DNA of 46,199 nucleotides from Ignavibacteriota bacterium (GTDB taxonomy: Bacteria; Bacteroidota; Ignavibacteria; UBA10030; SZUA-254). The translations under genes and the position numbers were made by a program. Where the stretch lies: the NCBI GenBank assembly GCA_025358305.1, contig JANYJZ010000014.1, positions 1-46,199 on the forward strand. Reading direction: 5' to 3'. This document shows, piece by piece, positions 40,148 to 45,824 of the stretch (positions within the stretch are counted from its first letter, which is position 1; every line of letters starts with the position of its first letter). The notes beneath the pieces are model-generated. The model was not told where the DNA came from. It saw nothing but the letters and a program-made list of their open reading frames with translations, and did no database searches.

Positions 40148-40435
40148 TCAATAGGTCGGCGGCGGCGGAGGGGGCGGTGGCGGCCCGCTGCCCGGATCTT
40201 GGCTTGTAACGACGGTGCTGTCCGAGGGGCTTGTCCCACTCGTTGCGGATGTCGTCGTATTGGTTGCAGAGGTGAGGAATGAGGTGATCGACTGGATCAT
40301 CGATGTGAGCGGATCCGTGCCGGAGGTCGTGGTCGCCGATGCGATGGACTCGATGAGGAGCGTCGAGAACACGATCGCGCAGACCGCCCGGAAAAGAAGA
40401 GAGGTGCGCCCAGAAGTGTGTCGTGGATATTGCAT
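40148..40435 (-). CDS. small secreted Thr/Ser-rich protein with polyproline C-terminus
   Basis: A 95-residue protein of no recognised family. A signal peptide is likely: basic MQYPRHTSGRTSLLFR, hydrophobic AVCAIVFSTLLI, then a probable cleavage site after SIASA. The mature part is almost only Thr and Ser with few charges (LTSMIQSITSFLTSATNTTT), then QDPGSG and nine consecutive prolines before the terminal TY. The ATG at 40435 has AAAGGA upstream and a good promoter behind it, so I trust this start over a longer reading. A surface-exposed or cell-wall-associated role is possible, but the function is unknown. Confidence 0.65.
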   Translation of the reverse strand: MQYPRHTSGRTSLLFRAVCAIVFSTLLIESIASATTTSGTDPLTSMIQSITSFLTSATNTTTSATSGTSPSDSTVVTSQDPGSGPPPPPPPPPTY

Positions 40436-40529: not shown

Positions 40530-40558
40530 AATATGGGAATTGCCGACGAAAAAGTCAA
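40530..40558 (-). promoter_or_regulatory. sigma-70-type promoter of the small secreted protein gene
   Basis: On the minus strand TTGACT (40558-40553), 17 bases and CATATT (40535-40530) predict a start near 40523 and a leader of about 88 bases before ATG 40435. The long leader leaves room for post-transcriptional control. Confidence 0.7.
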
Positions 40559-40869: not shown

Positions 40870-42018
40870 ATGAAGCAGGAACTGAAGATCGTCATCGGAT
40901 ATGCGGTGCTCCTTGTACTCCTTGGAGCAGCTGCGTTTCTGTTTCCTCACCGGGAGTTCGACACCGTGGGTGTGGTGAACGTCTCGCTTCAACTCTTGCT
41001 CGCCTTCCTTTCCATCCTCATCATGAAGAATAGTGACGATGCGTCCCAGCAGGGCATTTTCTTCTTTTCTTCTCTCTTATTCGGCTCAGGGCTCCTCCTT
41101 CTCCTGAGTTTGTTCGCAGGTTCCTCGTTCCTCAAAGGAAGCACGTATGGTCCATTCCTCTACTACCTCTACGTCAATAAGGCCGGTCTCGCGCTCGTAT
41201 CGAGCCTCGCAGTCCTGAGCGTCGCGGTCGATTACGTCTTTCATCGGTTCTCAGCGATGCGGAAGCTCCTCTTGACACTCGTCCTGGCGGGCACGCTCGT
41301 CTATTCATTATTTTCGTCCTTTGTGGTGCACCCCTTCAATCTGTTCAAGGAATGGGATTACCTCGTGCTGTACGGCATGACACAGGCGCAGTCCACGCTT
41401 CAACCGGGAAACGTCGCTCGATTGAGCGATGCAGATCTTGCAGCCACGATAAGCCGTCAGGCTCCCAAGACAAGCCCTCTTTCTGTGGCCAGGACCAACT
41501 CAGAGGAGTTGACTGCTGACGTGGGCCGGCTCCGGGAATATCTCCAGGGAGACGGTCTGACCAAGGTGTTTTGGAGGCCGCTTGATCTCGCGCTGATTTA
41601 TCTCCGCGTCGCGCTTCTCGCCGTCATTGCTCTGCTACTGGCAATGTTCTATCGCACGAACGCCCATCTGGGGGCGTATGTCGACAAGATCTTGATCCTC
41701 TTCTTTCTTTTCTTCTCGATGGAGATTTTCCATACGGCGGGGTTCCTTCTAACGTCGAACCCGGAGGCGTTCCACACGGTGTTCCGGGTGGGACAGTACT
41801 TTACGATCTTTTGCCTCCTCCTCATGGTGTACGCATATGACCTGAAACTGCGGTTTGTTCTTTCCGTCGCCGGAAAGTACTATGAGTTTGCGGTGCAGCG
41901 GACTCCTGAGAAGGTCACGCGGTGGAGGGATGAACTCGATCAGCTGATCCTGCGCGCGTTTCTCAAGCGAAATCACGGTTATAACAAACTCGGCACATTC
42001 TCACAAACTGAAGACTGA
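40870..42018 (+). CDS. polytopic membrane protein of unknown family
   Basis: A 382-residue protein I do not recognise. Hydrophobic segments lie near residues 6-24, 32-51, 61-83, 94-116 and 128-147, then 233-256, 268-288 and 300-320. Between the fifth and sixth is a hydrophilic loop of about 80 residues, and the C-terminal 55 residues are charged (FAVQRTPEKVTRWRDELDQ) and presumably cytoplasmic. The layout could suit a membrane sensor. Only 25 bases separate its stop from the start of the NtrC-like gene, so the two probably work together. No enzymatic motif, signal peptide or lipobox is seen. Confidence 0.75.
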   Translation: MKQELKIVIGYAVLLVLLGAAAFLFPHREFDTVGVVNVSLQLLLAFLSILIMKNSDDASQQGIFFFSSLLFGSGLLLLLSLFAGSSFLKGSTYGPFLYYLYVNKAGLALVSSLAVLSVAVDYVFHRFSAMRKLLLTLVLAGTLVYSLFSSFVVHPFNLFKEWDYLVLYGMTQAQSTLQPGNVARLSDADLAATISRQAPKTSPLSVARTNSEELTADVGRLREYLQGDGLTKVFWRPLDLALIYLRVALLAVIALLLAMFYRTNAHLGAYVDKILILFFLFFSMEIFHTAGFLLTSNPEAFHTVFRVGQYFTIFCLLLMVYAYDLKLRFVLSVAGKYYEFAVQRTPEKVTRWRDELDQLILRAFLKRNHGYNKLGTFSQTED

Positions 42019-42043
42019 AACTGATCAAAGGAGGCTCGAAGAG

Positions 42044-42925
42044 ATGGAAACGACACTTATTGGCAATTCATCGGCAGTCAAGAAACTACGTAAGGAGCTC
42101 GCGAAGCACGCTGCCGGCAAGAAACACCTCGTTCTCATAGGCGAACGGGGGACAGGGAAGTCGACATTTACACGGCTGCTCCACCAAGAGGCGAGGTCGG
42201 GCGAGTTGTACATGCTCCATCCTGCGACGATCAAGGAATTGAAGATCGAAGGTGCGTGGACCGGACCGCTCGCCAAGACGACGACCCTCCTCATTCAAGG
42301 GTTCGACGAGTTCACCTACCTTGACCAGGCGGCGATCCTGAACCTCATTCAGGCCCTTCCGGTGCGACCTTTCCGTCGCGTCGTCATCACGTTAAGGGAA
42401 CCTCTGGAGTCATTGCTGAAGAAGAATACCATCGTCCGGGCGGCCAAAGAGGTGCTGAAGCCGTTCGACGAGATCGGTTTTCCGAATCTCAAGGAGCGGG
42501 CCGAGGATATACCCCATTTCATCGAGCATTTTGTCGCCGAGACCTCCCGTGAGCTCGGGAAGGAAGTTCGAGCGATCGATATCAACGCGATGGACTTTCT
42601 TTCGAGACGCCTCTGGGCTGACAATATCCGGGAGCTCAAGTCGGTCATCGAACAGTCCGTCTACATGTCCGGCGAGTCCGCGATAGAGCTGCCGGCGCAC
42701 CTCGTGGACGAGTATTCGCAGCTCGAAGGGATGATCGCCAAGTTGAAGGAGAAGAAATCATTCCTCTTTGACGAATCCCTCTCCAACCTGGAAAAGACGC
42801 TCATTGAACGCACTTTGGAAATCGCAGGTTTCAATCAATCGAGAGCCGCCGAGCTCTTGAACCTCTCGGAAGCGAATCTCCGGTACAGGCTCAAGAAGTT
42901 CCACATCAAAGGCGCTCAATCCTGA
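42044..42925 (+). CDS. compact NtrC-family (sigma-54 activator-like) protein with degenerate AAA+ core
   Basis: A 293-residue protein without a receiver or sensory domain. Walker A GERGTGKS (33-40) is good, but the segment to the sigma-54 contact loop is about 12 residues short and the loop reads GAWTGP (70-75) in place of GAFTGA. Where LFLDE is expected the sequence is TLLIQGFDE (81-89), so the Walker B Asp-Glu appears replaced by Gln-Gly. The later parts are well kept: FPNLKERAEDIPHFIEHF (146-163), LWADNIRELKSVIEQSV (190-206) and a Fis-type helix-turn-helix NQSRAAELLNLSEANLRYRL (264-283). A strong AAAGGAGG at 42027-42034 precedes the ATG. It may bind ATP and DNA without hydrolysing ATP. Confidence 0.85.
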   Translation: METTLIGNSSAVKKLRKELAKHAAGKKHLVLIGERGTGKSTFTRLLHQEARSGELYMLHPATIKELKIEGAWTGPLAKTTTLLIQGFDEFTYLDQAAILNLIQALPVRPFRRVVITLREPLESLLKKNTIVRAAKEVLKPFDEIGFPNLKERAEDIPHFIEHFVAETSRELGKEVRAIDINAMDFLSRRLWADNIRELKSVIEQSVYMSGESAIELPAHLVDEYSQLEGMIAKLKEKKSFLFDESLSNLEKTLIERTLEIAGFNQSRAAELLNLSEANLRYRLKKFHIKGAQS

Positions 42926-43222: not shown

Positions 43223-43577
43223 GCGGGCCGTACGGCCAACGGCCGTCCCGTTCGCCTGCGGCTCGAGTGGTACGTGAGTAAGTGGACACCGGCGTCTTCA
43301 CGAGTGTCGTCGGAGATGCGTTGCACTCCTATCCTACTGGGAGGCGTGCACCTGCCGTTCGGCGATACCTGTAGCGGCAGGATCCGGCCCTGCGAGACCG
43401 ATCGCGACCCCGTGGATGGTCGTTTCGGTTTCCGAGTTTTCCGGCTCCTGCCCGCCCCGGTGGCGTTTTGCACCGACCGGTCCGTGTCCGATCCCACGAC
43501 CAGAGCGCCAGATGCGCACGCGTGTGAAGTGTTTGAGTTACAATTTCGCCGCAACCCCTATCACCAGGAACGACGCG
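43223..43577 (+). other. long leader or possible small RNA
   Basis: The roughly 355 bases between the strong promoter and ATG 43578 have no recognisable protein, although frames stay open because of base composition. Near the 5' end GGCCGTACGGCC (palindromic) and a further GGCCGT can form stable hairpins. This is either a regulatory leader of the PIN-like gene or a separate small RNA. A TACAAT at 43539-43544 might be a second -10 close to the gene, but lacks a good -35. Confidence 0.4.
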
Positions 43578-45824
43578 ATGAGTCATACTGATTCCGGGGT
43601 GTACGAGGCATTCGCCGAGTATGCCCGAACGATCCGGGAGAGCATCGAGCAGATCGAGTCCGACCGCGTGCTCCTGCGGTCTGGGCATCAGCTGCTCTTC
43701 GCCGTCGATTTCGCGGAGATCAGACAATGCCTTCAGCCGCGCACGGACGTCGACGGCAGCCTCATGACGGCCGCGATCCCCGGCGAGTCGACAGAGAACC
43801 GATATGCCAGGCAGCAGCTGGCCTATTCGTCCATCTTTGGCCAGCTCGGCCACGACCTCCTCATCCTTCCTCCTCACCAGATCGAGATGAGCGACCACTT
43901 CCATCTCCGGCGTTCCCTCTACCAGCAGCAAGGGGTACGCGATCCTCATCGGATCGAAGAATATCTGGCGAGACATCTCACCGATCACAGGGGTTTTCGG
44001 GCCATTGCCGCCATGCTTGAGAAAGATCCCGACTCCGAGGCGTTGACGTCCGAGAAGATGAAAAGGATCTCCCTGTATGTCCGAGAGAACTTCAAAGAAC
44101 TGATGTTCCTGACACTTCCACACCCGTACGGCCGGGTGGAGGAGGACGAGCCGGTCAGGCATATGCTCCAACACCTGGGGATCAGACCGTATGCGGACTT
44201 CTTCAAGGACTCTGAACTGCAATTCGACGCCTTGTTCCCGGGTTCCGCGGCGTGGTTCGACATCCTGAACGATGGGAAGCATCCTGAAGGGGAGTGCGCT
44301 GCCTACACCGACAGTCTCGCTTGCGCGTACCTGGAACAGACGAACGGGATGATCAATCCAAGGAATGAGTCGCTCTTGTTCATTACAAGTTCTCGTACCG
44401 TCGCCGCGGCCCTTCGCGAAAAGGAGCTGGGCCGAAGCGGTTCAACCATGCACCGCGCCTCTCTGACGAGGGACGTGAACTACTTCTCGACGCTCTTCCA
44501 CCACCGCCGGAACGACCCTCGGGAGATGGACGAAGAACTGGCCCGGACGATGCGCCACTGTGAAGAGTTGTGCCGCATCTTGGGCGAAGCGGTTCAACCG
44601 AGGGCCGAAGAGCTTCCGGCATCGTTTGAAAAGGCGTCCGCCGGCGCGTGTGACGCTCTGCTTCGAGCGTTCACAGCGAAAGAGAACCTCGGTCTGGCGA
44701 TCGCCGGCGTGGGAGGATCCCTCGATGAAGGTGAGGGACGCTCCATCGGCCATCTTTCCCCGCGGAATTCGAACAGCATACGAAAGATCGTTCGGCTCGT
44801 CGCCACGAACGAGGATGTGCGCGGAGTGCTTCGGGAGGACTTTGCCCGCGTGGCGACCGGGATCGCACGACATCTATCGGACATGGACCTGCTGCTCAAT
44901 TCCCGCAGGCGCGGGGTGCGACAATTCCACCAATCACGCGCATACATATCCGCCGCGGATTCGAAGCTTATACTTGAATCGCTCGCATCCGAGATGCCGG
45001 CAGAGGTGTATGTCCATAACCCCCACGTCCACCGGATCGCGTTCAGCGTGTTGTCTCGATACGGCAAGCAATTCACGAACAAGGCGTGGCATGCCGGGAT
45101 CCTCACCCTTGCGAGCGTCCAGGCAGGTGTTCCGGAGCTCCATACGTTGCGGGCGTACCACTTCGCGACGATCGAGAACTGGTCGTCGGCGCTCTCGGAG
45201 GTCCGCATGGGTCTACGTGACAGGCCGTTGAGCGACGACGCGAGGCGTGAACTGCTCCATATCAAAACGGTCGTTCACCGCATGCAGGATCAGACCGCAG
45301 ATGGGCTGATCGCCTGTACCGACGGTCTGAAGCTGAGCGCGTCGGACCCGCGCCTGAGTCACGAACTCGCGATCCTCCTCTGGCAGGTGCTCCAGAGCAA
45401 GCATCCGGCGGAACGGAAGAGCTTAACGGATCTCGTGAAGAGGCTCATCGGACAGGAGACGGACTATGTCATGGCGCTCGACGCCGTCGGACGTGCGCTC
45501 GAAGCCCTCGGGAGTTCCGCGACCGGGCTCGACGGCGACCAAAGGCTGCCCCTCTACTCACACGCATTAAACACGTCCGCATTCCTCGCGCTCGAGATCT
45601 TCCGCGTTCGCCGGGACGTCATGTATCTCAAGCTCGCAGAGCAGCGCATGGCGGAGCTTCGCGCCGTACTGCCGGAAAAGAAGTGGGTGAAAAAGTTCTT
45701 TCACACGATGGGCTGCATTCTCTTCGAACGCTGGGATCTTTCGAGAGAACATGTCGACGAGCTGAGGGCTGCGAAGAAGTATCTGAAAGAGACGGTAGGC
45801 GACGTGCTCATGCCCGCGTCCTAA
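43578..45824 (+). CDS. large PIN-like nuclease candidate with helical C-terminus (frame continues past TAA)
   Basis: A 748-residue protein of no family I can name. The pattern of a PIN-type nuclease is discernible: Asp44 at the end of a strand (LLFAVDFAEIRQ), Glu103 after LLILPPHQIE, then a helical insertion of about 130 residues, Asp245 in YTDSLACAYLEQTN and LLFITSS (267-272). PIN domains cleave RNA or DNA with bound metal. The rest (about 300-748) is helical, and the last 200 residues resemble TPR-like repeats. No signal or membrane segment is present. The start MSHTDSG at 43578 has AGGAA upstream. The frame stops at TAA 45822-45824 but continues in frame with coding-like sequence. Confidence 0.6.
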   Translation: MSHTDSGVYEAFAEYARTIRESIEQIESDRVLLRSGHQLLFAVDFAEIRQCLQPRTDVDGSLMTAAIPGESTENRYARQQLAYSSIFGQLGHDLLILPPHQIEMSDHFHLRRSLYQQQGVRDPHRIEEYLARHLTDHRGFRAIAAMLEKDPDSEALTSEKMKRISLYVRENFKELMFLTLPHPYGRVEEDEPVRHMLQHLGIRPYADFFKDSELQFDALFPGSAAWFDILNDGKHPEGECAAYTDSLACAYLEQTNGMINPRNESLLFITSSRTVAAALREKELGRSGSTMHRASLTRDVNYFSTLFHHRRNDPREMDEELARTMRHCEELCRILGEAVQPRAEELPASFEKASAGACDALLRAFTAKENLGLAIAGVGGSLDEGEGRSIGHLSPRNSNSIRKIVRLVATNEDVRGVLREDFARVATGIARHLSDMDLLLNSRRRGVRQFHQSRAYISAADSKLILESLASEMPAEVYVHNPHVHRIAFSVLSRYGKQFTNKAWHAGILTLASVQAGVPELHTLRAYHFATIENWSSALSEVRMGLRDRPLSDDARRELLHIKTVVHRMQDQTADGLIACTDGLKLSASDPRLSHELAILLWQVLQSKHPAERKSLTDLVKRLIGQETDYVMALDAVGRALEALGSSATGLDGDQRLPLYSHALNTSAFLALEIFRVRRDVMYLKLAEQRMAELRAVLPEKKWVKKFFHTMGCILFERWDLSREHVDELRAAKKYLKETVGDVLMPAS

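Follow-up and report, generated by a model that had tools for sequence, protein, structure and literature searches.

The window, as we call the whole 46,199-nt stretch of DNA analyzed (positions 1 to 46,199 of contig JANYJZ010000014.1, Ignavibacteriota bacterium, assembly GCA_025358305.1; genome of 3.2 Mb), encodes on its forward strand a membrane protein of 382 amino acids (aa) (40870..42018) and a regulator of 293 aa (42044..42925). The spacing from the membrane-gene stop to the regulator start is 26 nt and contains a strong ribosome-binding site for the regulator (AAAGGAGG, 42027..42034, forward strand). A small secreted-protein gene of 95 aa lies back to back with the pair on the reverse strand (40148..40435). 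The regulator matches three Pfam families above the cut-off: AAA_lid_14 (E = 4.2e-17), Sigma54_activ_2 (E = 1.5e-12), and HTH_8 (E = 1e-11). As the initial annotation had read it, the protein keeps an intact Walker A motif GERGTGKS (residues 33 to 40, 42140..42163; GERGTGKST from residue 33), the C-terminal AAA+ signatures, including the sensor II motif DNIREL (residues 193 to 198, 42620..42637) and the AAA lid, and a Fis-type helix-turn-helix (HTH; residues 246 to 286, 42779..42901), all on the forward strand. It has neither a receiver nor a sensor domain. Among the best 25 of its 30 Pfam matches there was no LytTR domain, DNA binding being assigned to HTH_8, and no TPR family, which was also absent from the Pfam results for 23 membrane proteins. 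Elsewhere in the window, an 802-aa protein (43416-45824) has no Pfam match.

The AAA+ domain of the regulator lacks the equipment of sigma-54 activators. Its Walker B region, TLLIQGFDE (residues 81 to 89, 42284..42310, forward strand; QGFDEF from residue 85), is degenerate, with Gln-Gly replacing Asp-Glu as originally proposed: when orthologues and canonical activators encoded in the same genome are aligned with it, the Asp-Glu columns of Walker B contain Gln85-Gly86 with no gap, and Asp88-Glu89, the alternative candidates for that position, align with the residues three and four places later. The five other window-type regulators also differ at this position (Gln-His, Gln-Asn, Arg-Asp, Lys-Glu, and Ala-Asp), so the replacement is a feature of the clade and not a sequencing slip. 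The initial annotation had further taken GAWTGP (residues 70 to 75, 42251..42268, forward strand) for a shortened L1 loop. Alignment ruled this out: no member of the six-regulator window-type clade has the L1 segment, the other five read EAFAK, QSFDQ, NVLSD, DLIEK, and ESLEE opposite GAWTG, and GAWTGP, missing from orthologues, is a chance look-alike. The structure model of the regulator, built from a two-sequence alignment (window and L058), is too poor (mean pLDDT of 45.9) to confirm the strand register; the strand it places at residues 79 to 87 would fit the Walker B register.

These losses extend well beyond the window. We aligned 47 distinct regulators of the family, with five canonical activators from the same genome as controls. 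GAFTGA was absent from every family regulator (0/47), as was the first arginine finger (0/47); the second finger was present in 4 of the 47, the Walker B Asp in 1, and the Walker B Glu in 39. By comparison, the Walker A Lys was retained in 46, the remaining one being a truncated read, and the sensor II motif N-x-x-E-L in all 47. All five controls have G[AS]FT, the Walker B Asp-Glu, and both arginines. L113 (genome G019, third subfamily) is the sole family regulator with a Walker B Asp-Glu. The same equipment is missing in genomes where the family regulator is the only member found. From the counts over 47 regulators, its loss is therefore a family trait, older than the window copy, and the window-type clade is, judging by the alignment, degenerated beyond the rest of the family, with L1 deleted and Walker B replaced in its six regulators. 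Because GAFTGA, Walker B, and the arginine fingers are lost, the alignment points to ATP being bound but not hydrolyzed to do work, and the regulator is unlikely to drive sigma-54 open complexes.

The own genome encodes RpoN and has 17 regulator-like places (E ≤ 0.001), counting the regulator itself and the canonical activators. A sigma-54 activator remnant could be pictured as a decoy, repressor, or subunit poison that acts on the true activators and has its sensor in the membrane protein. The fold family is the right one, RpoN and true activators are encoded in the genome, and the L1 and Walker B residues are indeed gone; however, the same loss runs through all 47 regulators and predates the window copy, Walker A is kept, and the pairing with a membrane protein and a secreted peptide is conserved, as described below. 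We consider this explanation unlikely. The interpretation in the initial annotation is partly supported: the protein is unlikely to drive sigma-54, and its membrane partner belongs to a conserved module, but the picture of a lone miniature activator gone wrong, acting as decoy or poison, was not supported.

The membrane protein, a candidate receptor, is predicted from hydropathy and a poor, low-confidence structure model (again a two-sequence alignment of the window protein and L058) to have about eight transmembrane helices, arranged as five helices, an outer segment of some 80 residues, three helices, and a cytoplasmic tail. The hydrophilic segment between helices 5 and 6 (approximately residues 157 to 237, 41338..41580, forward strand) is, by hydropathy, charge, and the same low-confidence model, a candidate extracytoplasmic sensing region. 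The C-terminal tail (residues 327 to 382, 41848..42015, forward strand), probably cytoplasmic and a candidate contact for the regulator, holds five of the seven invariant columns in a 23-row alignment of membrane proteins (F329, Y338, E339, D354, and D357). The window protein has no Pfam match. Over 23 membrane proteins of the family, the best Pfam match was PAP2_3 (3 of 23 proteins, E = 0.0037), and the membrane-protein profile matched a single solved structure (E = 0.22); both were judged to be noise.

Single-protein searches across 60 related genomes detected the regulator in 36 (E of 1e-20) and the membrane protein in 32 (E of 0.001). At loci with both ends in view, a receptor-like gene always accompanies the regulator. 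Distances in the regulator and membrane-protein trees are correlated (r = 0.90 over 39 same-locus pairs, 0 of 2000 permutations), a value that is also expected from plain joint vertical descent. Conservation of the gene pair, a check named in the initial annotation, is borne out. More broadly, a profile of 23 membrane proteins matched 37 of 294 genomes in a sample of the class and 10 of 395 in a sample of the phylum; the phylum matches all fall within the own order, and the class matches fall there or in a single genus that belongs to another order. In the trees, the window-type regulators group in a single clade, as do their membrane proteins, and the window-type pair was found in five genomes of the family examined. 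The own genome also carries a paralogous cassette of the more widespread form (G000:C29). Within the third subfamily, genome G019 has two tandem membrane genes ahead of one regulator (L067:5281-7616). Two window-type regulators (L062:1797-4220 and L066:3804-6194) adjoin large secreted proteins (GH18 and plastocyanin-like) that carry a sorting signal at the C terminus.

The conserved gene set includes a third member, overlooked in the initial annotation's two-gene signalling pair. In the widespread form, including the paralogue in the own genome, a small open reading frame (ORF) divergent from the membrane gene encodes a leader followed by 2 to 9 near-identical units of 11 to 15 aa. The leader is of the type KRxRSxxxTLxxxxATNxAISxA, with the Asn invariant in 22 rows. 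The units, exemplified by SGVMNIPDPPRP (near neutral by reading) and the SGIALNPSGTPRP type, all or in part end in PRP or PKP in 21 of 26 precursors, and in most precursors the final unit lies at or near the stop with no linker residue. GGAG stands just upstream of the start in 24 of the 26. We scanned 2,586 small ORFs of 45 to 260 aa in 477,565 bp (41 loci, comprising the pair neighborhoods and the window) for a hydrophobic N terminus combined with a repeated hexapeptide. Thirty-four ORFs were returned. Of these, 26 are precursors adjacent to the membrane gene and the remaining 8 share sequence with a precursor but are read in a different frame or strand; none lies elsewhere. Searches against NCBIfam gave the precursors sub-threshold matches only, including BimA (1e-4) for one proline-rich precursor. 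At L080:8789-9290, two adjacent precursor genes share the leader and differ in part of their units.

The repeated units are strongly constrained at the peptide level. Pairwise comparison of units within one gene gave 844 synonymous versus 43 nonsynonymous differences (pS = 0.50, pN = 0.010, pN/pS = 0.02); these counts are non-independent, and the unit patterns, which we wrote ourselves, would miss strongly diverged units and so lower pN. One precursor gene has nine units in nine DNA versions with zero amino-acid change, a pattern that is difficult to account for unless the peptide itself is selected. The peptide sequence of the unit differs from genus to genus.

A profile of 22 precursors (E of 0.01, 60 genomes) matched 29 of 35 regulator-bearing genomes (regulator presence at E of 1e-80) versus 0 of 25 without the regulator (Fisher, 1.5e-11), 18 of the 29 having supplied profile sequences and 11 not. 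The other six regulator genomes gave no match at this threshold, some loci being cut by contig ends. Precursor match and membrane gene are on different contigs in G003, G005, and G057, and three weak extra matches (E of 2.6e-4 to 0.007) lie apart. At the five loci of the third subfamily, no precursor was found with a filter for a hydrophobic N terminus and a ribosome site. Across 23 loci, divergence of the outer segment of the membrane protein did not track that of the peptide (partial r = −0.13, p = 0.82), and the rest of the receptor tracked it weakly (r = 0.22, p = 0.02). The third subfamily without a precursor and the untracked outer segment both count against a simple version of the signaling model set out below.

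For 23 of the 26 precursors, a codirectional M50 protease gene comes next, no more than 1.2 kb away; of the three precursors without one, one sits 59 bp from the end of its contig. At L114 (genome G107), which represents another order of the class, the genes run M50, precursor, membrane gene, regulator, and glycosyltransferase, and the precursor there is single-copy and contains ..SGNSMLPDSPDP... No M50 gene was seen beside window-type pairs. An assignment of the conserved neighbors to a MoxR/Bat operon proved wrong, Pfam identifying them as M50, glycosyltransferase, uridine kinase, and M16. The genes after M50 at L061:11585-15952 (of unknown, FlgD_ig, and outer-membrane types) recur in several cassettes and may be coregulated.

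These precursors could also be bacteriocins or other antagonistic peptides, with the membrane protein conferring immunity or export and the regulator controlling production. Multicopy proline-rich peptides ending in PRP resemble insect proline-rich antimicrobial precursors, and species-specific sequences would suit warfare. Against this, units such as SGVMNIPDPPRP are not strongly cationic, the neighbors examined included no ABC exporter or modification enzyme, and, at loci with both ends in view, the constant companion of the regulator is a receptor-like gene. We therefore regard antagonism as improbable.

The small gene of the window itself is a candidate single-copy signal-peptide precursor by position and layout. 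Its product has a hydrophobic N terminus, a Ser/Thr-rich middle, and a proline-rich C terminus ending in ..DPGSGPPPPPPPPPTY. A ribosome-binding-like AAAGGA precedes the ATG, and a putative sigma-70-like promoter, TTGACT-N17-CATATT, faces the gene (40530..40558, reverse strand), by a pattern that was written after the sequence had been seen. Five small ORFs of the same layout occupy the same place in four related genomes (G003, G005, G008 with two, and G009), and such ORFs adjoin all window-type membrane genes whose upstream sequence is available, the membrane gene in G003 being a fragment at a contig end. The five counterparts are 22 to 30% identical to the window protein, which makes their kinship plausible only. 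Since the window protein also has no repeats, the role assigned to it rests mainly on position and layout. Sub-threshold matches to pilins were obtained (TrbC/VirB2, E = 0.004, with a longer ORF; VirB2, E = 0.087). The structural case for the widespread cassette is strong; for the window copy, a diverged paralogue whose proline-rich product is single-copy, it is weaker and is based on paralogy and layout.

The divergent regions between the small gene and the membrane gene contain TTGACA-type sites facing one or the other. The word CTTGACAA, present in 15 of 26 regions, was rejected as a regulator site because it corresponds to the -35 element. Three of the 30 divergent regions contain, upstream of the membrane-gene TTGACA, an exact copy of a dyad chosen by eye, TTTTTAT-N4-ATAAAAA. 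In the 3.2-Mb own genome it occurs once, at the paralogous cassette, and it is absent at the window copy; it may be an AT-rich promoter element instead of the regulator's site. Of the 30 regions, 11 have CRP/FNR-type sites (GTGA-N6-TCAC), compared with a mean of 0.1 after shuffling, and one Crp-type HTH protein of the own genome scored above the cut-off. No region of the 30 had a sigma-54-like site (at least 9 of 11 consensus positions), which says little against a sigma-54 remnant because the shuffles gave none as well. A structural role of the small proteins (at the cell surface, in a matrix, or as pilin-like proteins), with the pair switching in response to envelope stress or surface composition, might be indicated by the FlgD_ig and outer-membrane-type genes after M50, the sorting-signal proteins adjoining window-type pairs in two genomes, the weak pilin matches, and the global input suggested by the CRP-like sites. 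We consider it very unlikely: the units are short, constant within a gene, and different between genera, and in most cases the last unit, lacking the linker, closes the chain, unlike structural repeats.

We conclude that the pair is probably the receptor and regulator of a dedicated peptide-signaling module. The copy in the window would be a paralogue of that module that has diverged and encodes a single-copy proline-rich peptide of its own. The conserved gene set carries a back-to-back gene for a small secreted proline-rich peptide, which argues for such a system and not for a faulty sigma-54 activator. In the proposed mechanism, the small protein would be exported by its N-terminal signal sequence, as its leader suggests, and processed to a short peptide rich in proline. 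Precursors of the widespread form would release several copies of it, with the neighboring M50 intramembrane protease as the likely processing enzyme. The multispanning membrane protein would sense the peptide outside the inner membrane, and its conserved cytoplasmic tail may hold or release the AAA+/Fis-HTH regulator. The regulator, probably an ATP-binding oligomer without a power stroke, would bind DNA at the divergent promoter region and, together with ordinary sigma-70-type polymerase, raise or lower expression of the cassette.

Most known peptide pheromones come from Gram-positive bacteria. We lean, with some reserve, toward a new class of Gram-negative cell-cell peptide signaling in which one cassette combines a multicopy propeptide, an M50 protease, a new receptor family, and an ex-sigma-54 regulator, and in which duplication has placed in the window a second channel that uses a separate proline-rich peptide. 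If this is correct, a self-contained cassette in a deep Bacteroidota-type lineage would open a new signaling class to testing, with multicopy precursors like that of yeast alpha-factor and receptor and precursor families that match no named ones in the libraries searched. It would also mean that AAA+ activators were repurposed after losing sigma-54 contact, Walker B, and the arginine fingers, which puts the purpose of the retained Walker A in question. We recognized no prior description of the cassette or the regulator type in the literature searched, bioRxiv and most subscription journals being outside its scope.

The cassette shares features with several known systems and none of the defining receptors or regulators of the first three considered here. 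The LytTR regulatory systems (LRS; HdrRM and BrsRM) are modules of a regulator and a membrane protein without a kinase (PMC6193735), and the pair is likewise a kinase-free two-protein module. An autoregulatory repeat of the LRS stands just upstream of the -35 element (PMC6193735), a position that the dyad upstream of TTGACA, a candidate regulator site, may share. An LRS encodes a membrane inhibitor together with its regulator; a conserved membrane partner is encoded in the cassette as well, and any inhibitory role of it is putative. In contrast, the LRS regulator is a LytTR protein and that of the cassette an AAA+/Fis-HTH protein; the cassette membrane protein matches no named family, and the cassette includes a dedicated gene, in back-to-back orientation, for a secreted precursor. 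In RRNPPA systems, a small exported precursor adjoins the receptor gene, as it does here with export judged from the leader, and a minority of propeptides contain several copies of the mature peptide, whereas multicopy precursors are the rule in the widespread cassette form (PMC9765709). The RRNPPA receptors are cytoplasmic TPR proteins of Firmicutes, in contrast to a membrane protein with an AAA+/HTH regulator (PMC9765709). The Eep/RseP site-2 (M50) proteases process exported signal-sequence fragments into pheromones; the likeness lies in the M50 gene that follows the precursor in most cassettes, and the difference in its being encoded within the cassette, with a putative substrate (PMC10202637).

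The regulator itself resembles, in parts, the bacterial sigma-54 activators (bEBPs such as NtrC, PspF, and NifA), with which it shares Walker A, an AAA lid with sensor II, and a Fis-type HTH; it differs in that its family has no GAFTGA, a changed Walker B Asp in 46 of 47 members, and no first arginine finger. TyrR/PhhR-type relatives of the bEBPs work with sigma-70 and carry ligand-binding N-terminal domains. Like them, the regulator is bEBP-derived and without sigma-54 function, but in the cassette, sensing seems to have moved to a separate membrane protein.
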